Assembly: GCA_963377175.1 (NCBI GenBank)
Contig: CAUJNA010003288.1
Coordinates: 21,001 to 85,000 of the forward strand
Source of the DNA: Effrenium voratum
Lineage: Eukaryota > Sar > Dinophyceae > Suessiales > Symbiodiniaceae
Direction of reading: 5' to 3'
DNA length: 64,000 nucleotides
How positions within the stretch are numbered: the stretch's first letter is position 1; every line of letters starts with the position of its first letter. A program made the position numbers and the translations under genes. Below the pieces are notes generated by a model. That model saw only the letters and a list, made by a program, of their open reading frames with translations, was not told the origin of the DNA and made no database searches. Positions 8,940 through 64,000 of the stretch are shown here, piece after piece.

Positions 8940-11900
8940 CTGGAGGTGTGCGGTTCTGCGTCCAAGGGGTCATTCCTTCGCCTGACGCAGCCCTGCACAA
9001 AGGGAAGTGTCCTGCTCTCAGTGCCTTTGGCTTGCGTTCACAATCTGCACCTGCGGCTAACAACAATCAAATTACTTGATGGTTCTCAGCAAAACATGGG
9101 GAATGACCCCTTTCTCCCAGAAAGGTTTCCTTCAAGAGAATCCCTGGGTTTCTTCCCAAGACCTTGGGTCATTCCCTACTGAGCACCAGCCAGATTATCA
9201 CATTGGAGTTTGGTGGTTCAGAAGCTCATAAACGACTTGAACACAAGCACCCTTTGATTTTGAGCTAGATTGCTTTTGATTGAGCCCACCATGATCCACC
9301 ACAGCTTCTGGGACATGACTCAAGAGATTGGATCATCCGGAAAGCCGCCTTCCACAGCTCCATATGTGCCATGGTCAAACCACTCCTTTAATTCGGGTTG
9401 GTAGAGATGGTCATGGGCCTCTTACACAACTAGGGATTTTAAACGCTGCCTGGGTTCCTCTAACGAATCCATGACCTCAACCCACATAAGGAGTCTTGAC
9501 CAGCCACCGGCTCAAAGCCCCTAATTGCCAGCGGGGTGGTGCGGGTCAAGCATCGCTTATGTTGTCGTGTCAACATTTTGGTGGAGGTCTTCACGGGAGG
9601 AAGCCGGCATGTGGTGGAGTTTGTCCCCATAGGGGTGGCGGTCCACCTGCGCTCCATTTGCGTTTGCAAAGCCGAAGGTCTGCTGACGAGCCCACGCTAA
9701 ACCAGCCTGAGACACTCTCCAGTACAATCAGCAGACTTGGAAGCACGGGCAGCTGCGCGAAATGCTGGAGCGTATGAGCACCGCCCATCCTCTAAGTTCA
9801 GGCACCTTGATTTGTTGAACTTTTGTGCTCAGGTAGCGTAGTCCTTTGAGGTGCAGTGTTGTCCTTGGCATTGCAAAGCGGCGGTTCGTCCCTAATGCCC
9901 CAGGAGAGGCCTATGTATTTTCAGTAGCAAGATTCGCCGCTGTATTATTTGTTGGCTGCGGAGGTTTTGGGGCAGCTTCGCGGTGGATGGCGCGTGGCCA
10001 GCGTGTTGCTTTCCCTGCTAGGGCCGGACTGGGCAGGAAGATCAGTTAAAAGGAGTCACAAGCAGTTTTGACCCCAGGCGTGTGGCGCTCAAAAGACTGT
10101 CCTCAATGGCAACGTTTTTCGCTGCTGGCCACGTTGGGGATCTTCAGGCTTCAGCATGTTAAGATGATCCCGCAACGTCCAGATTGATTTACGGACATTC
10201 CTTTAGCAAGCATTCGTCACTCGCCGAAGCAAAGCTGTTCGCCCAGGTGCCCATGTCGTCGTGCCTCTGCTCGTGGGACGTGAGCGACAAAGCCCTGGAG
10301 GCCTTGCATCCTGAGCCCATGGCGCCCCTCAGACTGGCATTGCTGACTGCCGGCTATTCGCGAACGGAGTACTTCTCGCGGGCCGCGCCGCTCGAGGCAT
10401 CTGCTTGGGTTTGAGGGGACATGGGTGGTAGCGCAGGAGATTCGATCAACAGCCAACACCGGGAGTATGTTTTTTTGCCAGGTGCACCAGGGCTGCCAGG
10501 GTCAGCAGGGTGGTTTGTGATGCTGTTGTTCCGGGCACAAAGTGAAATCGGCCTTCTTGTCCATTTACTTGGATTTCTCATTGCCCCCTATGATTGGAAA
10601 CTCCCTGCAAACACATAGGTCTTCAGCTGCCACATGGCCAGTTGGCCAGACGCCTCGGTCGCGGCGGAGTGGGCGGGGCCCAGCCTGGCGTGGCGCCGCG
10701 TGGGCGGCTGGCGCCAGGAGCTGCGGAGGGAGTGGCAGCGGCTCCGCCAGGCGGGGATCGAGGTGACGGAAGAGCAGCCGCGCGACGCAAGCGTCAGGCT
10801 GAATGCTGGGAGGTGTGGGGGTGTGGTTGCGGGATGTGCTGCGGAACAGACGACATGTGCAAGGAAAGTGCGGAAGTATAGTTTGTATCTCCTAAAACAA
10901 TCCTGGAGCAAAGCTGGCTTGATGATTGAATGGGGGTGTCCTAGAGCCGGACAAGACAAGTTTTGGGAGTTCACGTGGAGGGACAGACATAAACCTTTTC
11001 AGATTCCGATTTGCAAGCTTTTGCGGAAGCGACGGTCTCTTTTGCCTGTAGTGATGCGTGGGCAGAGAGTTGGATGTTTTGAACTTACAATGATGCAGGG
11101 TGGCAGGGTATCCTGGTGTTTGTTGCCAGAGCTGTTGGCCTTTTGCACTGCTGTTGCTGGGCACATGTTGGCACGAGCCGGCATGTCTCCTTTTCGGTTC
11201 ACGCGCAAAAACGTGTTCCAAACGAATGGCGCCTCATGCGGCCGGCAACTGTCTTTCCAATCTGTCACAAAGCTTTGCTTTGGCGTGGATCTGAGGCATC
11301 TTTGGGCAGCGCTGGTGGTGCAAACGCGCGCCCTTGGCGGGAGCGGGGAGAACCTCACTCTTTGCCCGGGCATCGATCTTTGCAATCACGTGTCCGTGGG
11401 ACAAACTGCTCGGGTCAAGATTCAAGAGCATGCTGTTGAGCTTGTGGCCGAGTACAGCATGGAAGCGGGGCAGGAGGTGACCATAAACTATGGGCCGGAT
11501 GCAGATTTCTTGGATCTGTTCGAGGCCTTTGGCTTCTTCGATTCTTTGCTGTGTTGTGTCGGTGTTGCAGTGGTTTTCGAACACTCGTCATGTTGCCGAT
11601 GTTGCATGCTGCCAAGGTTTTCCTCTTTCCTGAAGACCTGACCCATGGGCTTGCCCGCAGTGTCCCACTCAGGATTCCACTAGCGTCATCCACACGGTCG
11701 AGGTGGAGATCCCACTCAGCACCATGTTGTCAGACCAGGAGTGGCGGAGGGACATCATCATGGCCGCGGCAGAGCAAGGCTACGATGAGGTCTTTGAGGT
11801 GGGCCGAAGTTTCAGAGTGTTTTGCGGCTCGCGAAACAAGGTTACCGAGATCTTAACGTGAAACTACAGAGCCTCAAAGCGTTCAAGCATCTCATTTTCA

Positions 11901-23071: not shown

Positions 23072-23545
23072 CACACCCACACCCACACCCACACCCACAC
23101 CCACACAAACACACACACACACACCCACACCCACACCCACACCTACACCCACACCCACACCCACACCCACACCCACACCCACACCCACACGCACACGCAC
23201 ACGCACACGCACACGCCCACGCACACGCCCACGCCCACGCACACGCACACGCCCACGCCCACGCACACGCACACGCCCACGCCCACGCCCACGCCCGCGC
23301 GCACGCGCACGCGCACGGACACGCACACGCACACGCACACGCACACGCGCACGCGGACGCCCACGCGCACGAGCACGCGCACGCGCACGCGCACGCGCAC
23401 GCGCACGCGCACGCGCACGCGCACGCGCACGCGCACGCGCACACACGCACACACACGCACACGCACACGCACACGCACACACACACACACATTCACACAC
23501 ACACATTCACACACACACACACCCACACACACACACACACGCAGG
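23072..23545. repeat. CACACC/CACACG microsatellite
   Basis: About 470 bases. The 5' part is mainly CACACC, the middle becomes GCACGC/CCACGC, and the 3' part returns to CACA. This is a graded change of unit rather than random mutation. Confidence 0.9.
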
Positions 23546-34105: not shown

Positions 34106-34979
34106 GCAGGGCTGAAGCCAGCATCGGGGACCGTTTTGCCAGGCATAGGATTCTCATTCTTCTATCATTGTGATGTACATCATTTGTTCATTGCTATATC
34201 AGTACAATGTTTTTTCAAGACCAGCCGCTCACGTGCTCCCATGGAGCCCGGGCATTTCTGACATAGGACCCATGTGGCACCCCACCTTCAAAGAAAAGCT
34301 CCCAGGGATCAGACATCAGACGGCTCCGGAGGCTTCCAAGTTCGCCTCCGCCTTCGCTGCCGCTGCCGCCGCGGTGGCGGCCGCCACTGCCGCGCCAGGG
34401 GGTCCCGGACAAGCGACGGCTGAGCCCGGATGTGAAGCTCGCAATTGGTCGCGTTCTTTCGAAACATGTACTCTGCTGCATCACCACGACCCTCTGGCCA
34501 CACAGCGCGGTAAAGCAAGTAGCCCCCTTCCAAGAGTCTGCGAGCTTCTTTTTTTTTGGAACGTTAATGGACATTGTTCATTGTCATCTCCGAGAAGGGG
34601 CAAGGACTTGCTGATGAGCAAGGCTTGTTCAGGTGAGCAAGGCTCGTTCAGGTTCTGCCTGAGTTGGAGGGCTCATATTCCATTTAGTTTTCCGCGGGCA
34701 CCAACTGCAGCCAGCAGGCACAATGCCATCCATCCAAATTGGTGCAACGAGCCATGCTTCTCCCTGAGGCCGGCGTCAGGCCGGGCCGATCCCGCAGTGA
34801 CGTATTCAACATGTTTTAGTTGAAAGGGCCGCTGTTTACCTGCGTCTGGATCAGCCTAAAAGGTACTTGTTGAGTGTATATGACACATTATATCTCTATA
34901 TATATATGTATATGATGTAACGCCCCGGTATGTAAAGATGAATTAGGTTTGCGTTCCGCCAGATTTCGGCTTGCGGGTT

Positions 34980-37414
34980 ATGGCCACTGGCCACTCCTCC
35001 GAAGGAGTGTGCCAGTGCGACTTGTGCCTGACCCTTAGCAGGGTCAGGGACCTGTGCCGAGGGTCTAGCTCCTACTTTTTCTGGAGCCGGGCCCTCGAGC
35101 GTGTGAGGTTGCTGCAGGGGGAGATCCTGGACCTTCGGGATCGGGATCACTGGTTGACAAACCAGCCCCCTGCAGCAACCCCTCCTGGGACGGGAGGGGT
35201 AGGAGGTGCTCCTTCCGAGGGAGCATCTCCAGCGGGAGCTCGAGCTCCTGAGGGAGGATCGGGGGACCTGGCAGTCCCCCCGGCCTCCGACACAGGGTCA
35301 GCGGCAGAGGCTGCTGGGGCCAAAGAGGCCGGTGAGGAGAGAGTGAAGGAGAAGAAGAAAAAGAAGAAAGAGGAAAAGAAGGAGAAGGAGAGGAAAAGGA
35401 AGAGGTCTAGGTCATCGAGGGGGAAACGTGAGGATAGTCTGGAGGTCACCAGGAGTCCGGGAGGAAAGGAATTGAAAAGAGGAAGCGAAGAGTTTCCGTG
35501 GCACCAGGTCGGAGGGTCTGTGGGGGTCAAGGAACCCGCCGCGAGCGAGGAGGAAGAGGAGCGTCCAAGGGAAGCCAGGCATCGGACCCCCACCTCTCCG
35601 GTGTCATCAAGCAAGGAGGATCAAGCGAGGAGGCATAGGAGCACTTCGAGTGAAGGGCACATCAGGCGGCTTATTGCAAAGAGCAAGGAGGCCACTGAGG
35701 AACGGGCTGAAGGTGAAGAGAGGAGAGAAGAAGCATCAGACAGCAGGGAGAAGGAGGAGATCAAGAGGGACCTCAGCCGGTCCCCTTTGCGGAGGCTCCC
35801 GGGGGTACAGAGGTGAGGACAGGAGAGGTAAGAACAAAGGGCGTAAGAAAAGAGAGCAGCAGAGGAGGTTCAGAGAGCGCTTTGGTGGAGGAAAAGGAAA
35901 AGGTGGTGGAAAGCGCTGGGGAGGCCGAGGAGATTGATGCCTCCGAAGGTGGGCGGAAGACGAGGAGCTGCTAAGGCTAAAGCAGCTGCGAAGGGGAGAG
36001 CCAGAGCCCTTGCCCGGCTGCCGGTAGCTCCTCCTAGGGTCCGAAGGAGACCAGCTGGGGAGGAAGAGAGAGAGGACCCTGCCGTGTTGAGGAGGCCGGC
36101 TGGTAGAGAGGTGGCTCCAGTTGAAGAGAGGTTTGAGAGAGGGGAGAGTGTGAACGTTGTGGAGTTGCCAAGACATTTGATTAGGCCAGGCCAGAGCTTG
36201 ATCGTGGTTGAAGGCAACTACTGGGAAGCCCCCGTGACGCTATGTGGAACAGTGGAGAGAGTCGAAGAAGGACGGAGCAGGGGTCGTCGTGGAGGTTCGG
36301 CTGTTGGGCACGGAGAACAAGTGGTCGACAGGGAACCCAGCGAGCCGATGCAAGCTACACATGTGCGGGGACGGTTGCGTGGCAGGCCTATGCGAGGACG
36401 GGTTGGTCCACGTGAAGAAAGTCAGGCTTCGCCTCCCAGGCGCAGGGGAGGCGTGGCTGGACAATCTGGTGGGGCGTGTGCCGATTCAGGTGGACGACAT
36501 GGCGGCCTTGAGAGAGAGGGGCAACGAGCTGGACAAGGAGGATTTGAAGGCTGGAAGAAAGAGCACAAAGGTAAAGGAAAAGGAGACAGGAGGTATGGAG
36601 AAGAAGAGGGCGAGAAGCGAGTCAAGCTCTTCAACCAGCTCATCCAGCCGGAGGAGAAAGAAGAAGAAGAAAAAGAAAATCAAGGCGAAGAGAGGAGTAA
36701 AGGTCGAAGCAACAAAGGAGCTGAGCGCTGTGGTTGGAAACACCGGGATGGACCCGGACGTCAAGGTGAGGAGACAGGTGGTGAGGAAGGTAAAGAAAAG
36801 CCTGAGGCTGTTGCGGGAGAGGAGTCGACAGAGGAGGAGGACGCGGGGGTGTTCGAGGAGGCGCAGAGGATCAGGAGAGTTGGAGTAAGAGGCCCAGGAG
36901 TTTTGGCGGCGGCGTCCATCAACGAGATGAAGAAGTCGTTGGTCGCGGCTTCAGGGCAGCTGTGGGGCCAAAACAGAGATTTGGCGCCGGTGGGAGTGCA
37001 CTATTTCAGGACGGTGCTTCAGCTGAAATTCATGGCGCGATGGCCCGAGAAGCGTTCACCCTGGCCTATGGTGCGGACCTCCTGGCCCAAGGGAGGGTCG
37101 CCGAGGAGATCGACCTGTTGCTGCAGCGCCTGAAATCGTTGGAGCAGGTCTCTCAGGGGATGCCGTGGCAGACTGCTCAGAAGATGGAGCTGTGCCCCTT
37201 GGAGACAGCTCAGGTAGCAACCCGGGCGGAGGCTGCGATTGCGATAAAGGAAGCCCGCGGAGAAGGTGCCTGGCAGAACCCTGGAAAAGGTGCTCCTGGG
37301 AGGGAGCAGCAACCGAAGGGTGGTTGGCGAGAGCCAGGAAAAGGACGAGACGGCAAAGGCAAGAGCAAGAAAGGCAAGGAGGAGAAGGGATCAAAAGGTG
37401 CGGAGAAGAAGTAA
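34980..37414 (+). pseudogene. gag: Gag-like region with several frameshifts
   Basis: ATG 34980 starts MATGHSSEGVCQCDLCLTL and continues FWSRALERVRLLQGEILDLR, then a long Lys/Glu/Arg/Ser-rich, disordered region. The protein-like reading moves between frames near 35790, 35935, 36270, 36820 and 37030. Key pieces: YWEAPVTLCGTVERVEEG (36217-36270); VRLLGTENKWSTGNPAS and LHMCGDGCVAGLCEDG (36290-36410); PGVLAAASINEMKKSLVA and YFRTVLQLKF (36894-37030); AREAFTLAYGADLLAQGRV, then MPWQTAQKMELCPLE (37040-37210), and a Gly/Lys-rich tail to TAA 37414. It would bind element RNA and form the particle; no CCHC zinc knuckle is obvious. Five frame changes argue for decay, although assembly error is possible. 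Confidence 0.75.
35027..35048. other. Perfect 9-bp stem, 4-nt loop
   Basis: CCTGACCCT (35027-35035) pairs with AGGGTCAGG (35040-35048) around TAGC. It lies about 45 nt inside the Gag frame near the element's 5' end, where a packaging or priming structure would be plausible. Function is inference. Confidence 0.5.
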
Positions 37415-39564
37415 GGAAGGCAGGAGTCAGCCAAGAGGAGGAAGTGTCAGCCTGGAGAGCTCCTAAGAATGGGAGAGGTGAGGACCGGACTATGACAGAG
37501 GAGGATGAGACCTTGGACCACAGCGTCCCTCGGAAGATGACAGAGAATGGTGGAAGAATTGAGGTACTGCCGTGCATGATGGGAGCCAATAGCGCTCCTA
37601 GCCAGGGGATGGTGCCTCTGCCCTCGGGCCGACCCGAGGTAGAGGCGCAGAAGGGAGTAGGAGAGATGCTGGGGGGCCTTACTTTTGGCGAGGGAGCAGT
37701 TCATTTGGGAGCATCGCTGTTTCAATATTTATCTTCAAGCTGCATGACCAAGTCCATTGGCAACATCTTTCCCTTGCCATCAGCCTTTTGCTCCCTCAAG
37801 AAACTATTCCCGAACAAGAAGGACGAGGAGTTGAGGATTCTTCAGAACATGGTTTGGTCATTGAATCATCTTAATGGCTCCCCAGTGTCTATGTTTGGAG
37901 ATGGGACCCCCTGCCAACAGCGGCTTTTGGGGGGTCTCATGGATGAAGCGTGCGCCGGTCGGTGGCTGGAAAAGGCGGAGTTCCTGGACTGGGGTGAGTT
38001 CTTCAGAGTCAAAGGGGTTGATTATCAAGGAGAAGAGGTCAAAGTTGCACGTGCGGTTTTTTGGGAGATGTTATCCCCTGCGTTGCCCTCGGAAGTTGGG
38101 ACGGTCGCCCTTTCTGACGTTTGTGATGCAGGGTGCAAACATTATGTTGAGAACTTCGAGAACTATCTTATCCCGGTTGAGGACCAGGTGTTCACGAAAG
38201 GGCCCAAGGTCATGGTTCCTCCCGGGGATTGGGAGGAGCTCGCAACAAACCTGGTTCAACAAGGCATTTGCAAAGTTATTGAGGAGTCAGAGGTTTATCA
38301 CGTTCAGGACAAGCCCTTGTTGAATGGTCTCTTCGGGGTTTCGAAGGGCGACTGGTCAGGCGAGATTGAGGTCCACCGGCTCATCATGAACTTGATACCC
38401 TTGAATCGTATTTGTCGGGGTATTGAGGGCGACATTGCTACTCTTCCTTCGTGGAGTTCCATGGGACCACTGTCGCTGGATATCGATGAGGACCTTCTCA
38501 TTTCAAGCGAGGACGTGAGATGTTTCTTTTATATTTTTAAAGTACCCGTTTCTTGGCATAGGTTCATGGCTTTCAACCGCCCTTTGCCTAAAAGCCTCTG
38601 TGAAGGGAAATCTGGTACATGTTACCTGGCGGCGACTGTTCTTCCGATGGGTTTCAAGAATTCTGTGAGCATTGCCCAACATGTACATCGGTATGTTTTG
38701 CGGCAGGGCTTGATGAACTCAGGTCGCCTAAATGGAGGGGATCAGGAGTTGAGGCGTGACAAGCCTTTCCCTTCTTCTAGCAACATGTTCCGTATTTATT
38801 TGGACAATTTTGACGAGCTCACAAAGGTGAACACGGACCTAGCCGCCACGTTGAAGGGAGAGTTGACTCCTACTGTGTTGGCCCTTCAGGAGGCGTATGC
38901 AAGATGGAACATCCCAAGGCACCCCAAGAAAGCTGTGGCCCTCCAATCTCAGGCAGAAGTACAGGGAGCTGTGGTTGACGGGGTGCGTGGCGTTGCCTAT
39001 CCCAAGGTGGACAAGATCCTGAAGTATGTGGTTTTGGGGCTGAAATTAGCCAGTTCTACCTTTAGCACGCAACGACAAGCTCAGATTGTGGGAGGGGGTT
39101 TCGTTTATATGACTATGTTCCGTAGGCCCCTCCTTTCGGCGCTGAACCACATATGGTCTTATATCAAGAGCTTCGAAGGTCTGAAAGAAGGATCCGTCCT
39201 ACGTACTCCTGAGTTGGTCAAGATGGAGATCTTGAGGTTTGTGGGTTTGGTTCCCCTTGCACATTTTGATTTCCGTACAGAGATCCAGGGGATGGTTACA
39301 GCAAGTGACGCTTCGTCGACGGGGGGAGGCGTAACCCGGAGCAAGGGCCTGAGCCCGTGGGGAGTTATAGCCTCCCAAAGGCCACAGCGAGGTGACCTTC
39401 CTGAACCCTTTGATTTTTGCGGGGTGGTGACCATTGGGCTCTTCGATGGCATTGGTGCACTTCGAGTTGCGGCGGAGGCCTCGCGGCTGCCATTGCTGGG
39501 TCACATTGCTGTCGAGAAGAACGCAGAGGCCAGGAGGGTTACAGATTTTTGCAGGCAAGTTTGA
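37165..39564 (+). CDS. pol: Pol part 1: reverse transcriptase, RNase H start, methyltransferase start
   Basis: This 799-codon frame overlaps the end of Gag; real Pol content starts near 37420. Fingers/palm signatures: EVHRLIMNLIPLNRIC (38368-38415), SSEDVRCFFYIFKVPVSWH (motif A, 38503-38559), LAATVLPMGFKNSVSIAQ (motif B, 38629-38682) and FRIYLDNFDEL (motif C, 38788-38820). Motif C reads YLDN where most reverse transcriptases have YxDD. After the RT comes FRQ-type connector sequence, then TASDASSTGGG (39298-39330), the first catalytic Asp motif of RNase H. From 39433 IGLFDGIGALRVAAEA is methyltransferase motif I (SAM binding), followed by IAVEKNAEARRV (motif II). The frame stops at TGA 39562-39564, and the methyltransferase continues in the next frame. 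It would act in the element's particle on RNA templates. Confidence 0.88.
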   Translation: MADCSEDGAVPLGDSSGSNPGGGCDCDKGSPRRRCLAEPWKRCSWEGAATEGWLARARKRTRRQRQEQERQGGEGIKRCGEEVRKAGVSQEEEVSAWRAPKNGRGEDRTMTEEDETLDHSVPRKMTENGGRIEVLPCMMGANSAPSQGMVPLPSGRPEVEAQKGVGEMLGGLTFGEGAVHLGASLFQYLSSSCMTKSIGNIFPLPSAFCSLKKLFPNKKDEELRILQNMVWSLNHLNGSPVSMFGDGTPCQQRLLGGLMDEACAGRWLEKAEFLDWGEFFRVKGVDYQGEEVKVARAVFWEMLSPALPSEVGTVALSDVCDAGCKHYVENFENYLIPVEDQVFTKGPKVMVPPGDWEELATNLVQQGICKVIEESEVYHVQDKPLLNGLFGVSKGDWSGEIEVHRLIMNLIPLNRICRGIEGDIATLPSWSSMGPLSLDIDEDLLISSEDVRCFFYIFKVPVSWHRFMAFNRPLPKSLCEGKSGTCYLAATVLPMGFKNSVSIAQHVHRYVLRQGLMNSGRLNGGDQELRRDKPFPSSSNMFRIYLDNFDELTKVNTDLAATLKGELTPTVLALQEAYARWNIPRHPKKAVALQSQAEVQGAVVDGVRGVAYPKVDKILKYVVLGLKLASSTFSTQRQAQIVGGGFVYMTMFRRPLLSALNHIWSYIKSFEGLKEGSVLRTPELVKMEILRFVGLVPLAHFDFRTEIQGMVTASDASSTGGGVTRSKGLSPWGVIASQRPQRGDLPEPFDFCGVVTIGLFDGIGALRVAAEASRLPLLGHIAVEKNAEARRVTDFCRQV

Positions 39565-40919
39565 TCGTCGTGGGAGCTGGGCCACCGTGCCAAGGTGCCA
39601 GTGGACTCAACGCTGACCGTAAAGGGGCCCTTAAAGACGAAAGGTCGTGCTTGTTCGCCCATGTTCCTAGGATACTGGCACTGGTTAAACAGGCTTTTCC
39701 CTGGTGTCAAGTTGGTCTTCTTATGGAGTCAGTTGCCTCAATGGACGACACGGACCGTCTCCTTATGTCAGCATCTGTGGAGCTATCACCCGTTCGAATT
39801 GATGCAGCAGGAGTTTCAGTCGCACATCGACCTCGACTTTACTGGTTTGATTGGGAGGTCCCTGACATGCCAAACGTTCATAAGAAAGACGGAGCCGTGG
39901 TTGACATCGAGCTTGACGCCTCTATTGACCCCAGTACTTATTTGGAACCTGGATGGTCCATGAGGGGAACTGAGAAACTACCGACCTTTACCACATCTCG
40001 ACCTCGAAATTTCCCGGGGCATAGGCCGGCGGGACTCAACAAGTGTTCCCCTGAAAACCGTCAGGGATGGGAAGACGATTCTTTTCGTTTCCCCCCTTAC
40101 CAGTACAGGACTTGTTACTGTCTTTTCAACAAGGCTGGTGAGGTTCGTTTGCCCAATGTGCGAGAGCGAGAGGCAATGATGGGGTTTCCCATCAACTACA
40201 CTGAGAACTGCCTCCCGAAAAGTGGTTCAACTCCCACACAAAAGACTGATACGCGGCTCACGCTTATTGGCAATTCGTGGAACGTGACAGTCATCACTTT
40301 TCTTTTGAGCTGCTTGGGATCAGTATTGGGTCTATGCCCGCAATTGACCCCTTCAGACGCAGTGGAGGCTACAAAGCCTGGCACAGGACGCAACTTTATG
40401 GATTTTTTGCAGCGACCCCCCCTATCGTTTTCCCGAAAAAGAGGGTCGAAGGAGGAGGAGCTCACTCTCGCCAAGAAATTCCTCAACCATGTCAGTTTGA
40501 AGGGAGAGGATATTTTAGTTCACTCGTCCGCTGAGGAACAGTTGAAGTTTCATAGGTTGCGGGCTCGCATCCCTTCGCAGTGTTGGAGGTGGGTGACTGT
40601 TGCTGGCTGGGGTTGGAAAGGAGACCCCGAGCACATTAATTGCCTGGAACTCCGGGCCATTTTAACCAGTGTCAGGTGGTGGATTGAAAAACGCAAAGTG
40701 GCTCGTGCCAAATTTATTCACTTGACGGACAATTTAGTATGCATGCATTCCCTTGCCCGAGGGCGTACCAGCAGTCGCAAACTTCGCAGAACTTTGACCC
40801 GCATCAATTGTCTTCTTTTGGCCTCCCGTTGCTTTCCGGTGTGGGCGTATGTCCACACGTCTCAGAATCCAGCCGACCGACCGAGTCGGCGTAGTGTCCG
40901 GAAGAAATGGGTAAAATGA
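39417..40919 (+). CDS. Pol part 2: cytosine-5 DNA methyltransferase and RNase H C-terminal part
   Basis: Real content starts near 39555, after an indel relative to part 1. Methyltransferase motifs: VVGAGPPCQGASGLN (motif IV; catalytic Cys codon 39588-39590), GLLMESVASM (motif VI, ESV in place of ENV), RIDAAGVSVAHRPRLYW (motif VIII), LPNVREREAMMGFP (motif IX) and LTLIGNSWNVTVITFL (motif X). The spacing and the 'AHRPRLYW' and 'GNSW' forms resemble DNMT3-type enzymes more than bacterial ones. After a ~70-residue linker RNase H resumes: PEHINCLELRAILTSVRWW (Glu motif), IHLTDNLVCMHSLARGRTSS (Asp motif) and YVHTSQNPADRPSRR. The product would transfer methyl groups to cytosine in DNA, plausibly the element's own cDNA. 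The stop overlaps the recombinase start. Confidence 0.88.
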   Translation: MRGGDHWALRWHWCTSSCGGGLAAAIAGSHCCREERRGQEGYRFLQASLIVVGAGPPCQGASGLNADRKGALKDERSCLFAHVPRILALVKQAFPWCQVGLLMESVASMDDTDRLLMSASVELSPVRIDAAGVSVAHRPRLYWFDWEVPDMPNVHKKDGAVVDIELDASIDPSTYLEPGWSMRGTEKLPTFTTSRPRNFPGHRPAGLNKCSPENRQGWEDDSFRFPPYQYRTCYCLFNKAGEVRLPNVREREAMMGFPINYTENCLPKSGSTPTQKTDTRLTLIGNSWNVTVITFLLSCLGSVLGLCPQLTPSDAVEATKPGTGRNFMDFLQRPPLSFSRKRGSKEEELTLAKKFLNHVSLKGEDILVHSSAEEQLKFHRLRARIPSQCWRWVTVAGWGWKGDPEHINCLELRAILTSVRWWIEKRKVARAKFIHLTDNLVCMHSLARGRTSSRKLRRTLTRINCLLLASRCFPVWAYVHTSQNPADRPSRRSVRKKWVK

Positions 40920-41938
40920 GCCCTAAATGCGTTGAAGGGAGAGCCAAAGAAGACAGGGTCAAAATTCGCAAGCGACTTGGAAGTTTAAAACAAATCACAG
41001 TTCAGCCAGCTACTCGTGTCCGGTATGACCGAGCTTTGAAAGGATTCTTTTCCTTCCTCAAATTTAATGGGAAGGTTCTTCCGACTGATCAATCCTTCTT
41101 GGATGAGTTGGTCGGCGAATATTTGGAGCTTTACTGGGCAAATGGTGAAGGCAGGGCCCTGGGGTCTGATACTTTAGCCGCCATGCAAGATGCGCAACCC
41201 CAGGTACGAGGCAAGCTCCAGCAAAGCTGGAGACTTATGAAGACTTGGGTTTCTAATGAAATGCCAAATCGTGCGCCTCCAATTTCCGAAGATATCCTTC
41301 ACGCGCTAGTTGGTCTGGCGCTTTTCCGGAAGGATCCGCTTTTTGCCCTTTCACTCCTTGTCGGCTTCTATTCCATGTTGAGGACTGGCAAAATTTTGGG
41401 TATTATGAAATCCCATGTTTCTCCGGGAGTTGGATTTACTCCCGCAGTCATTTCACTTGGTCTTACCAAGGCTGGTAAGCGGCAGGGTGCCGCCGAACGC
41501 GTCACCGTGTCAGTCGCTGATGTCGTTCGTCGACTCTCACAGTGGAAGGAGTCTGCGGTGACTCCCGTCAACTTGTGTCCCGCGCCCCATAAGTGGCGTC
41601 AGAAGTTCGCGCAATATCTCAAGGATCTGCACTTGGACGCTTTTGAATTTCGTCCATACAGTTTAAGGCGCGGTGGGGCAACCTTTTGGTTTCGTAAACA
41701 TGGGTCTTTGGATAAGATTCTTGTCCAGGGACGTTGGCAGGCGCAGAAGACCGCCCGTATTTACCTTAATGAGGGGTTAGCCATTCAGGCTGAAATGAAA
41801 ACACCCAACCAGCCGGATGTGGGGGGGTTCAACAACCAGTATCTGGCCGCGGTCAAAGCATCGTTGCCGAAATTTGAGCATGCCAAAGGCAGGACTGGGG
41901 GACGTGGAAAGAAGGTCAAAAGTGAGGTCGAGGGGTAA
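40907..41938 (+). CDS. Tyrosine recombinase of the retrotransposon
   Basis: 343 codons, intact. ATG 40907 lies 13 nt before the end of the upstream frame, in an overlapping AAATGA-type junction that would suit coupled translation. The N-terminal half (about residues 25-135) is a helical core-binding domain (TRVRYDRALKGFFSFLKF). The catalytic half has FYSMLRTGKILGI (first Arg), FRPYSLRRGGATFWF (second Arg in the HxxR box, with Tyr or Ser where His is usual), LVQGRWQAQKTARIYLNEG (Trp in the H/W box, nucleophile Tyr codon 41762-41764). It would integrate circular cDNA by site-specific strand exchange. Being frameshift-free while Gag and the methyltransferase are broken is notable. Confidence 0.9.
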   Translation: MGKMSPKCVEGRAKEDRVKIRKRLGSLKQITVQPATRVRYDRALKGFFSFLKFNGKVLPTDQSFLDELVGEYLELYWANGEGRALGSDTLAAMQDAQPQVRGKLQQSWRLMKTWVSNEMPNRAPPISEDILHALVGLALFRKDPLFALSLLVGFYSMLRTGKILGIMKSHVSPGVGFTPAVISLGLTKAGKRQGAAERVTVSVADVVRRLSQWKESAVTPVNLCPAPHKWRQKFAQYLKDLHLDAFEFRPYSLRRGGATFWFRKHGSLDKILVQGRWQAQKTARIYLNEGLAIQAEMKTPNQPDVGGFNNQYLAAVKASLPKFEHAKGRTGGRGKKVKSEVEG

Positions 41939-42109
41939 TCCGACCCTTTTCAAAACCGCCCTGAGGGAAGACGGCGGTTGGAGTTTTAAGGAGTCGAGGG
42001 GTAATCCGACTCGAAAGACTCAACCCCCTTCTAGTTTCTGGGCTTGGCCAGACAAAGTGGGGTGGTCTTTAATCAAGGCTGGGGCTGGGGCTTACCTGGG
42101 CTTGGCCAG
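41927..42109. repeat. Split direct repeats and hairpin at the element's 3' end
   Basis: GTCGAGGGGTAATCCGAC occurs at 41927-41944 (overlapping the recombinase stop) and again at 41993-42010. Between them AACCGCC (41954-41960) can pair with GGCGGTT (41983-41989). A second direct repeat, CTGGGCTTGGCCAG, occurs at 42038-42051 and 42096-42109. Repeated blocks of this kind are typical of the ends of tyrosine-recombinase retrotransposons, where they are used to form and integrate circles. Confidence 0.75.
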
Positions 42110-42110
42110 G

Positions 42111-42126
42111 AAGACCCCGGGGTCTT
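42111..42126. other. 16-bp perfect palindrome
   Basis: AAGACCCCGGGGTCTT is its own reverse complement. It follows the second CTGGGCTTGGCCAG copy and may mark the element end or a recombinase site. Confidence 0.55.
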
Positions 42127-42233
42127 GAACAACCTACTGGGAAGAGGTGTTGGTATTTAATGCAGGTTTCAAGTTTCAATTTTTCAGACAAATCTGGTCT
42201 TGCAGCGCGGAAAAGAGCAAGCCAGAATGAATC

Positions 42234-43600
42234 TTTATATATATATATATATATGTAAACATGCAAGCCCCCTGCTCACAGCCCGCTGAGCCCTTTCTGC
42301 ATGGGACATGGCGCCCTGCGAGAAAGTCAAAACGTGTTGGACTTTTCGACTTTTCGACTTTCCGTTCTTTTTGAGAGCAGGACGCTGCGAGACTGCACAA
42401 TTTTTTTGTACAGTTCAAGCTTTCTGACGCATTGTTCGCATGGACTTACAAATTCCAAAACAAGAGCGGGACGCTGTGAGCGTGTGCTTTTTTCACGTTT
42501 TGAGTGGACATTTGAGTTGACCTATGCTTTAATGATTTGTGACAATTGATTTGTAAATCACTTCGATGGGAAAGACACTATGTGGTTAATTCCAATTTAA
42601 AATATAGCCAAGTTGAGTCTAAATCATGATATACCATAGACACTATGATTGGATTAATTACTTCTCAAATTCTGCTTAAACTCTAATTGAATTGTAAAGT
42701 TCTATTTGGAATGGAATTCTATCCAAATTTACATTCAAGATATCATTTCAAGCAGGATTCTGATCAAGCATTTTCTTTATCGAGTCCCATTTTAGTCCTA
42801 TTCAAGCTCAAATTGAATTCTAGAGAGCGGCTGTTAGTGGAGATGTGAATTGAGTACTAAAAATGCTACACAACAATGTGTTTCATGGTACTTCCTGACC
42901 ATGGTAGTGATGGGGCTAGCAAAAAATGAGCCCGATAATTCTACTTTCTATCTTTGTTATGTTCTACTCAATTTCTATCTGACATTAGATATAGTATGTT
43001 AATAAGGAACGCCTCTAATCAGGATTTCCATTTTAATTTTGGATCTTAAATAAGTTATATTGTTTTTCAATTTTACATGTTACATAGGGTTTCCTTTCCA
43101 ATAGACTTGTCTTTACAAACTAGTAAACATGATCACATTTTATTCAACAATTTCGGGACCGCTGGATTCTACCGTGTATATGTATCAAGTTCTAAAACAT
43201 AATCAAACTAAACATGAACAGAATTGAAGAAGGAACGACTACAAACAGAATTGTTTTTATTTACAGTTAAAACTTGAATAGTGATCATTCTATTTCAGTT
43301 TCAATATTTCACAAGCTTTCGTTTCCAATATAATGTGTTGTTACACATCAGGGCACATTCAAACGCAATTTATTCAGCAAGTTTGGGACCGCTGAGTTCT
43401 TTATGAATTCTGCTTAGTGCATTTGTCAAGTTCTTAGTTTCTAAGGAACGATTCCCATCGTAGAAACCGTCTCCAGCTTTCTGTACTGGGGCTTGGATGT
43501 GAACTAGGCAAGTCCACTTGAACACAAATGCTCTTGCAAACAGGCCGGAAACAGGACAATGCCAATAATGCAGAACAACTCGGAAAAGAGTCACGAACTT
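42234..43600. other. A+T-rich stretch without genes
   Basis: Composition changes sharply after the retrotransposon: a TA run at 42234-42255, then about 1 kb rich in A and T. Stop codons are dense in all frames and no exon-like segment is seen. The change in base use suggests sequence of different origin or a region under different mutation pressure. Confidence 0.6.
43080..43440. repeat. Two diverged ~230-bp direct repeats
   Basis: The order 'TTTCC(T/G)TTCCAATA ... TTATTCA(A/G)CAA(T/G)TT(C/T)GGGACCGCTG ... TCAAGTTCT' occurs at about 43090-43200 and again at about 43318-43435. The copies have diverged by substitutions and indels, consistent with an old tandem duplication. Confidence 0.6.
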
Positions 43601-43624
43601 GGAATCACGCCCCCCCTCCCCCCG

Positions 43625-43945
43625 CCCCCCAAGTCAGGATAGCTGCATAGTAGTTTTTTTTTGTTTTCTCGAGGTTTTTCATACTCTTCCAAAACCATGC
43701 AAACACACCTCGAGAAGCACACAACAATAGACAAACACAACACTATTATGCAGGACAGCTGACATAGTCTTGTTTTCTTTTGATGTTTTTGTGGTTTTCT
43801 GGAGGTTTTGCACACTTTTTCCATGAATGCAACAAATCGATAAAACCAAAACAACAAGACTGTGCCCCAACCCAAGTCAGGACACCTGACATAGCCTTGT
43901 ATTTTGTTTGTTTACTGCTTTGTTGGTTTATCGAGTTTGTTTGGT
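43625..43945. repeat. Three imperfect ~120-bp tandem repeats
   Basis: Each copy starts with 'GTCAGGA(T/C)A' or 'GCAGGACA' followed by 'GCTG/CCTG(A)CATAG(T/C)', then a T-rich stretch ending near 'CTCGAGG/CTGGAGG/TATCGAG'. Starts are near 43632, 43750 and 43875. No coding sequence is supported from 43600 to 44600. Confidence 0.55.
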
Positions 43946-44619
43946 TTTCTGACTACTTCAGAAAGCACAATATGTACAAACAAGTGCACTCTCGGGGCGT
44001 CCTGTTTTGTTCTTCTTCAGGTAGAACATCCCGGACTGAAGTCGGACTCAAATGTGCAGACGGCTAGGTGATGGCTCGGAGGCGGGAGGGGCTTCCGACA
44101 GTGGCCTTTTGTTTCAATGGCTCAGCCCAAGATTTGGCCTGCACGGCCCATTCAAAATTATTTGTGAGGTTATGGTTGAGCAATTGTTTGTCATCAAGCT
44201 TGGGGTATTGGAGATGTCTCGCCACTTTTGTAGCAAGCCTGCACAGGTTTTGATTGCGCCAGCTTTTCAGAAGAGTCTGATGGGCACCTTCCGCACATTG
44301 ATTGCTTGTTCGACTGCAGGCAGTTCTGTCGCTCACGCGCGCGGAGCCTGAAAGGAATCAACAAGCCCACCCACTGATCAACCAAATACACAAGTTGCTC
44401 ATCAGGGAGATGGCGGGAGGAATAACCACTGGAACAGTTGCATCCTGCGATTATTCAGTAGGCATCAGAGGTTCTCTCCTTGTGCATTAAAGACCATGCA
44501 CAAGTGACAGGGCAATCATAGATGTTGCTTAGACAAACAGATTCCGGCTGCTCACTTCTTCGCGAAGCCACGTTGAATCTTTCTTTGCGAACATATTCAG
44601 CCCACGTGTCATTTGATTC

Positions 44620-58126: not shown

Positions 58127-58300
58127 TATTCTTATCATTCTTATCATTCTTATCATTCTTATCATTCTTACCATTCTTATCATTCTTACCATTCTTATCA
58201 TTCTTATCATTCTTATCATTCTTATCATTCTTATCATCCTTATCATCCTTATCATCCTTATCATCCTTATCATCCTTATCATTCTTATCATTCTTATCTC
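58127..58300. repeat. 9-bp minisatellite (TTATCATTC)
   Basis: About 19 copies, with TTATCATCC and TTACCATTC variants grouped rather than scattered. Because the unit is three codons long, a minus-strand frame (57870-58442) reads a Lys-Asn-Asp repeat and the + strand reads Ser-Tyr-His. Neither has other support as a gene. Confidence 0.9.
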
Positions 58301-62683: not shown

Positions 62684-64000
62684 ACACACAGACACACCCA
62701 CAGACACACACACAGACACACAGACACACAGACACACACAGACACACACAGACACACGCAGACACACACGGACACACACACAGACACACACACAGAGACA
62801 CACACACAGACACACACACAGACACACACACACAGACACACACACACACACAGACACACATACAGACACAGACACACACACACACAGACACAGACACACA
62901 GACACACAGACACACAGACACACAGACACACAGACACACACAGAGACACACACACACACACACAGACAGACACGCGCAGACACACACACACAGACACACA
63001 CACACACAGACACAGACACAGACACAGACACAGACACACAGACACACAGACACACAGACACACAGACACACAGACACACACAGAGACACAGACACACACA
63101 GAGACACACACGCAGACAGACACGCGCAGACACACACACACAGACACACAGACACACTGACACACACACACCGACACACCGACACACCACACACCGACAC
63201 ACAGACACACAGACACACAGACACACAGACACACAGACACACAGACACGCAGACACACAGACACGAGACACAGAGACACAGAGACACAGAGACACAGAGA
63301 CACAGAGACACAGAGACACAGAGACAGAGAGACACAGAGAGGCAGAGACACAGAGACACAGAGACACAGAGACACAGAGACACAGAGACACAGAGACACG
63401 GAGACACGGAGACACAGAGACACAGAGACACAGACGCACAGACGCACAGACGCACAGACGCACAGACGCACAGACGCACAGACGCACAGACGCACACACA
63501 GACACACACACACAGAGACACACAGAAGAACACAGGGAGACACAGTAACACACAGAGACAGACAGAGACACATTGAGACACACAGAGACACACAGCGCAG
63601 AGACACGCAGAGACACGCAGAGACACGCAGAGACACGCAGAGACACGCAGAGACACGCAGAGACACGCAGAGACACGCAGAGACACGCAGAGACACGCAG
63701 AGACACGATACGCAGACACACGCAGACACACGCAGAGACACGCAGAGACACGCAGAGACACGAAGAGATACGCAGACACACGCAGAGACACGCAGAGACA
63801 CGCAGAGACACGCAGAGACACGCAGAGACACACAGAGACACGCAGAGACACACAGAGACACACAGAGACACACAGAGACACACAGAGAGACACACAGAGA
63901 CACACAGAGACACACAGAGACACACAGAGACACGAGAGACACACAGAGACAGAGACACGAGACAGAGACACGAGACAGAGACACGAGACACGCAGAGACA
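62684..64000. repeat. Large CACAGA microsatellite running off the window
   Basis: Over 1.3 kb. The unit changes in blocks: CAGACACA (62690-63255), ACAGAGAC (63262-63430), ACGCACAG (63433-63490), mixed, then the 10-bp AGAGACACGC (about 63600-63840), and CACAGAGA to the end. All three minus frames and one + frame stay open, giving false 'proteins' of up to 449 codons rich in Cys/Val/Ser/Leu. Confidence 0.95.

Follow-up and report, generated by a model that had tools for sequence, protein, structure and literature searches.

The SymbioDIRS-Dnmt3 retrotransposons of Symbiodinium encode a Dnmt3 methyltransferase in a Pol open reading frame (ORF) shared with reverse transcriptase (RT) and RNase H, and a tyrosine recombinase (YR) in a separate ORF (de Mendoza et al. 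2018, PMC5890265); for this and the other publications cited here, our statements refer to the portions of text covered. The same work describes two architectures with different domain orders, terminal repeats in two sets with the arrangement A-coding-B-A-B, an RT that aligns badly with Pfam, and purifying selection on the methyltransferase of the element. Two isolated SymbioDIRS methyltransferase domains methylate CG sites de novo in yeast, and the authors propose that the cDNA is methylated upon reverse transcription (PMC5890265). Brief mentions of the family are found in PMC6338049, PMC12344493, and PMC9998398. Here we describe a damaged retrotransposon copy, most probably of this kind, on the + strand of a 64,000-nucleotide stretch of the Effrenium voratum genome (assembly GCA_963377175.1, contig CAUJNA010003288.1, positions 21,001 to 85,000), which we call the window, and compare it with related proteins.

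Several other groups of elements share part of this organization. DIRS1-like elements (PMC3266345, PMC3783388) also have a pol-encoded methyltransferase together with RT, RNase H, and a tyrosine recombinase, but their methyltransferase is a Dam-like N6-adenine enzyme listed after RNase H, whereas the enzyme described here is a C5 methyltransferase that probably lies inside RNase H. In DIRS1-like elements, YR is the second ORF, between gag and pol, whereas here it follows Pol; their terminal repeats are inverted. KnitGypsy-Dnmt3 from the charophyte Klebsormidium likewise has a Dnmt3 captured into a retrotransposon Pol, in a Gypsy element with long terminal repeats, and represents an independent capture according to the abstract of PMC5890265. 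Ngaro-type elements differ from the present one by a pol described without a methyltransferase and by A-pol-B-A-B repeats, which were not seen here. The Ngaro gene order, gag-pol-YR, is the same as here, and KnitGypsy-Dnmt3 is not known to carry a tyrosine recombinase.

We interpret the locus, with a probability of roughly 0.83, as a decayed copy of the SymbioDIRS-Dnmt3 kind, in which RT is followed, in relatives whose Pol is open, by the two initial strands of RNase H, an entire Dnmt3-like CG methyltransferase, and the remaining RNase H on the same protein, while a second ORF encodes the recombinase. In the window, the + strand between 37621 and 41938 encodes RT, a Dnmt3-like C5 methyltransferase, a predicted RNase H, and YR, which are distributed over three open frames. 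The frame 37027-39564 contains RT and the start of the methyltransferase with its FDGIG motif, the frame 39414-40919 contains the remaining methyltransferase with the PCQ motif and an RNase H-like C-terminus, and the frame 40895-41938 contains the recombinase (Table 1). These results agree with the first-pass annotation of the window, which had named the same four activities on this strand (RNase H now being supported by predicted topology and acidic residues) and had placed the locus among the methyltransferase-bearing retrotransposons reported in 2018; the Dnmt3 class, the Pol ORF common with RT in relatives, and the separate YR ORF all fit that placement, as does an RT too divergent for Pfam. 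Its description of one continuous block has to be revised, since the locus is not in one frame: the 5' part lies in several frames, Pol is cut at about 39546, and RNase H apparently surrounds the methyltransferase. The outer limits proposed there, 34920 and 42190, are not confirmed by any terminal repeats. The copy differs from the described SymbioDIRS-Dnmt3 elements in being broken and in that A-coding-B-A-B repeats were not found in it. This class of elements has been known since 2018, and a single broken copy adds little to it; what is new is that the methyltransferase is probably nested in RNase H and that RT has an unusual motif, both drawn from the relatives.

For the comparative analysis, 240 proteins of the family were fetched and 100 of them were aligned, of which 73 span all four segments (RT, the N-terminal RNase H piece, the methyltransferase, and the C-terminal piece). 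The Pol matches include EukProt 'Skav' models, which we take to represent Fugacium (formerly Symbiodinium) kawagutii, and one protein from Cladocopium goreaui. A scan of viral contigs yielded 37 pattern matches, none of which encodes a relative.

The methyltransferase is of the Dnmt3 class. A profile built from 84 relatives matches DNMT3A at 6.8e-23, and DNMT3A/3B are top-ranked both by profile and by fold. The possibility of a bacterial methyltransferase was rejected, as DNMT3 is preferred to M.HhaI by the profile as well as by the fold. The methyltransferase motifs I, IV (PCQ), VI, VIII, and X listed in the first-pass annotation were located in the window, the motif names being labels that we presume to apply, and, apart from the Asn/Ser position of motif VI, each catalytic residue is conserved in 72 or all of the 73 rows. 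The expected DNA_methylase match was obtained above the Pfam cut-off in all five relatives scanned (E 4.1e-11 to 3.8e-6), while in the window, where the domain is divided by a frameshift, it stays below the cut-off (E=0.0045); apart from this match, the six window ORFs scanned gave weak matches to unrelated families only. A missing DNA_methylase match, which the first-pass annotation had named as a refutation, is nearly the case for the window taken alone but not for the relatives. The methyltransferase and RT share the Pol ORF in the relatives P0124, P0128, and P0140, and follow one another in the same order and on one strand in the window, with the frame broken at 39546. The two domains also diverge together: their pairwise identity matrices correlate at 0.78 across the 73 sequences (Mantel test; p 0.001 to 0.002 for all correlations reported here). 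Motif VI reads ESV in the window; at its central position, 60 of the 73 relatives have Ser and 13 have Asn; ENV is the usual form of this motif.

The break in the window copy is located within the methyltransferase. In a tblastn comparison with P0121 (993 amino acids), the closest relative found in the RT search, residues 1-510 correspond to frame 1 up to 39546 (38017-39546 at 90%), and residues 537-993 correspond to frame 3 from that position onward (39546-40916 at 85%). The deletion removes the methyltransferase stretch between motifs II and IV, and the loss of 26 codons plus one base makes Pol frame 1 stop at 39564 and leaves the remainder out of frame. Because its methyltransferase is broken, this copy would be unable to methylate itself as it stands. 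RT is still open as far as the break, and so is YR. The next closest relative, P0122 (571 amino acids, 89%), likewise differs from P0121 inside the methyltransferase, having neither the region of motif I nor the triplet PCQ, which may reflect decay or a faulty gene model. By contrast with the window, P0124 (1206 amino acids) and P0128 (1263 amino acids) run in a single frame through RT, the methyltransferase, and the C-terminal region, so that in these relatives the methyltransferase is not a gene separate from RT, a separation that the first-pass annotation had named as a refutation.

The RT assignment was supported through the structural model of a relative. A Foldseek search with the P0121 model retrieved, amid methyltransferase matches, the RTs of Moloney murine leukemia virus (E=1.7e-13) and HIV-1 (E=1.1e-12); superposition over the whole chain was poor, with root-mean-square deviations of 15.6 and 18.5 A and TM-scores by target of 0.51 and 0.45, respectively. 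The motif A Asp (38512-38514) is invariant in all 100 aligned relatives. Motif C (38797-38808) is not YxDD but YLDN, with Asn replacing the second Asp, and the same YLDN is present in 100 of the 100 aligned relatives. Among the 240 fetched proteins, the motif C pattern matches 137, every one of them with YLDN, and the motif B pattern LPMG occurs in 117, with YLDN downstream in 116 and absent in one. In the P0121 model, YLDN sits at a hairpin turn (strands 256-261 and 264-272), which is the expected place of motif C. The second Asp of this motif is normally required for RT activity. If real in active copies, YLDN would constitute a natural exception to this two-aspartate rule. A literature search on YLDN/YxDN and on YxDD in tyrosine-recombinase retrotransposons returned nothing apparently relevant among the papers listed, and neither YLDN nor a split RNase H is mentioned in the covered main-text sections of PMC5890265.

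The RNase H is predicted to flank the methyltransferase on both sides. In the model of the relative P0003, a strand (12-16, with Asp15), a second strand (20-29), and a helix precede the methyltransferase (about 49-387), which is followed by a strand (470-479), a helix (487-505, with Glu491), a strand (511-517) and then Asp518, helices, a strand (553-558), and Asp567; the P0121 model has the same order of strands and helices. This order fits the topology of RNase HI with its catalytic set, broken after strand 2. The four acidic residues, the first of which is Asp431 in P0121, are kept in 73, 72, 71, and 68 of the 73 rows. Both halves were found by pattern in 142 of the 240 proteins, including 136 with a PCQ-type motif, and the spacing between them is 462-499 in 139 proteins and 326, 422, and 434 in the other three. 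Judging from these models and residues, the methyltransferase is probably located within RNase H and not beside it, and the two parts are predicted to form one domain. We further lean, with some reserve, toward a Dnmt3 inserted between RNase H strands 2 and 3, beside an RT working with the invariant YLDN, in which case RNA removal and CG methylation would make up one interlocked module and cDNA methylation would be physically tied to cDNA synthesis. The apparent position of the methyltransferase inside the enzyme that finishes cDNA synthesis offers tangible grounds for supposing that its task concerns the cDNA of the element itself, and the anatomy of the family supplies residues and domain borders for testing the self-methylation idea.

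The recombinase ORF is open throughout, and 1071 homologues were found at E<=0.001. All 48 aligned sequences, the window's included, share its Arg, Lys, YxxR, and GRW positions without variation, and 47 of the 48 keep the Tyr; we take these to be the active-site positions on the basis of the recombinase motif. Neither RT nor YR of the window, both named in the first-pass annotation, has a Pfam match of its own; the former assignment stands by the Foldseek result for P0121, and the latter by Phage_integrase matches in nine of the 48 aligned YR sequences (best E 0.0026). Eight contig sizes (216617, 256077, 371534, 383178, 409949, 509856, 835477, and 16677) recur, by eye, in both Pol and YR matches among the 120 matches listed for each, and the EukProt models s76_g25 (Pol) and s76_g27 (YR) have a common scaffold name. 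The apparent co-occurrence of Pol and YR matches on the same contigs and scaffold is in keeping with a single element that carries both. From its start codon, YR shares 13 bases with the end of Pol (40907-40919), an overlap that may matter for YR translation.

Several results weigh against this interpretation of the locus. Pfam recognizes neither RT nor RNase H in the scanned window ORFs and the five relatives, and no RNase H family is matched there even after the pieces have been joined, as was done for three relatives. Among solved structures, the YR profile found six weak matches and no recombinase. Terminal repeats of the A-coding-B-A-B type were not found in this single, possibly truncated copy, where the 18-bp and 14-bp repeat pairs occur on the 3' side only, with no 5' copy. 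The models yielded no superposition with any RNase H, because the 50 structure matches listed were all methyltransferases, and this outcome neither supports nor excludes RNase H. Between the two RNase H pieces, pairwise identities correlate weakly (Mantel r=0.22, 73 sequences), a value to which we give little weight because the C-terminal piece contains badly aligned rows (minimum identity 0.14) and the N-terminal piece has 40 columns. For comparison, RT correlates at 0.61 with the N-terminal piece and at 0.44 with the C-terminal piece, and the methyltransferase correlates at 0.31 with the C-terminal piece. As one domain would be expected to give a higher r between its pieces, our confidence in the interpretation was lowered from 0.85 to 0.83. 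Finally, the CG observed/expected ratio is 0.69 in the element, resembling its surroundings (mean 0.67, range 0.61-0.80, in 85 outside tiles), so that the element sequence bears no trace of self-methylation; SymbioDIRS elements are likewise reported to have no significant CG difference (PMC5890265).

In the cycle that we envisage for active members of the family, RT would copy the element RNA and RNase H would remove it, the methyltransferase held within RNase H would methylate the newly made double-stranded cDNA at its CG sites, and the recombinase would insert the product, possibly in circular form. We infer the cDNA methylation itself, its timing, and its use, which would be to make the element resemble host DNA, where CG methylation is heavy; that the cDNA is self-methylated is a plausible hypothesis already in print, backed by the yeast assays of two family members (PMC5890265). 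The methyltransferase might instead act on the host, either by spreading genomic CG methylation or by lowering retrotransposition to the benefit of the host. Both roles are discussed in PMC5890265, and an element without CG depletion is consistent with them. Yet the purifying selection reported for the enzyme, the near-complete retention of its catalytic residues, and its joint divergence with RT stand against them, the latter two being what a role of the enzyme in the cycle of the element itself would predict, and we regard a host-directed function as unlikely, though deserving of some weight.

A second alternative concerns the architecture and not the function: the two RNase H-like pieces would not belong to one domain, the C-terminal piece being a divergent but complete RNase H, or having a different fold of its own, and the DAS..GGG hairpin of the N-terminal piece being part of the RT connection. 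The missing Pfam match even with the pieces joined, the missing superposition, and the weak correlation between the pieces count in its favour. Against this, the C-terminal piece has neither the first two strands nor the first catalytic Asp of RNase HI, by the topology as we take it, while the N-terminal piece provides them, with Asp431 present in every one of the 73 rows. Strands 2 and 3 of P0003 are both ten residues long, which suggests but does not show their pairing, and the two pieces occur together in most of the fetched proteins, as counted above; we hold separate pieces to be decidedly improbable, and a methyltransferase nested in one RNase H to be the better description. That the window methyltransferase is a remnant of a host gene beside an unrelated retrotransposon, as the differing frames of RT and most of the methyltransferase could suggest, was rejected as extremely improbable, given the uninterrupted ORFs of P0124 and P0128 and the coincidence of the frame change with the deletion.

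Table 1. Features of the retrotransposon copy and its flanks (window positions)
Feature	Position	Strand	Remarks
Gag-like 5' region	34947-37414	+	Lys/Glu/Arg-rich; by position and composition
Open stretches of the 5' region	34947-35816, 35476-35937, 35847-37133, 36238-36888, 36806-37414	+	Several frames
Pol N-terminal region and RT	37621-39276	+	Alignment to a relative (P0128, tblastn) begins at 37621; frame open from 37027
RNase H, first part (predicted)	39277-39396	+	Strands 1 and 2 (P0121 E422-432, E436-445); catalytic Asp 39307-39309
Methyltransferase, first part	39412-39546	+	Frame 1; motif I FDGIG (Phe 39442-39444), motif II Glu; DNMT3 match of P0121 residues 463-801
Deletion and frameshift junction	39546-39547	+	P0121 residues 511-536 (26 codons) plus one base absent
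Methyltransferase, second part	39546-40340	+	Frame 3; PCQ motif IV 39585-39593, ESV motif VI 39726-39734, RPR motif VIII, GNS motif X
Linker, methyltransferase to rest of RNase H	40341-40574	+	Mapped from P0121 model; residues 863-865 and 867-874 of low confidence
RNase H, second part (predicted)	40575-40892	+	Strand 3; helix A Glu 40647-40649; strand 4 Asp 40728-40730; strand 5; NPAD Asp 40875-40877
YR ORF	40907-41938	+	Open throughout; Arg 41381-41383, Tyr 41762-41764
Exact 18-bp direct repeat pair	41927-41944, 41993-42010	+	First copy contains the YR stop codon
Exact 14-bp direct repeat pair	42038-42051, 42096-42109	+	Repeat search
16-bp perfect palindrome	42111-42126	+	Repeat search

Upstream of Pol, the 5' region probably represents a degraded ORF, which by its position may be gag-like; a Pfam scan of three of its five open stretches found nothing above the cut-off. 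On the 3' side, the repeats and the palindrome at 41927-42126 are possible recombinase or terminal sites. Each 18-bp copy is accompanied by short inverted arms, in which, by eye, the same outer pair is G:C in one and A:T in the other. Similar AT-rich stretches lie at both sides of the element (34892-34920 and 42231-42258), and the 3' region folds slightly better than shuffled sequences (z -1.78; 6 of 200 shuffles equally good).

Elsewhere in the window, the GC content falls to 0.39 at 42001-44000, directly after the element, while 29 of the 32 tiles of 2000 bases range from 0.503 to 0.575. Long simple-repeat arrays were observed at 62684-64000, 23072-23540, and 58128-58298 (ACACACAG-like, CACACC-like, and ATTCTTATC in 19 copies at 96% matches). 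An open frame of 340 amino acids at 10619-11641 contains an INYG stretch, which by eye we take to resemble a SET-type methyltransferase.
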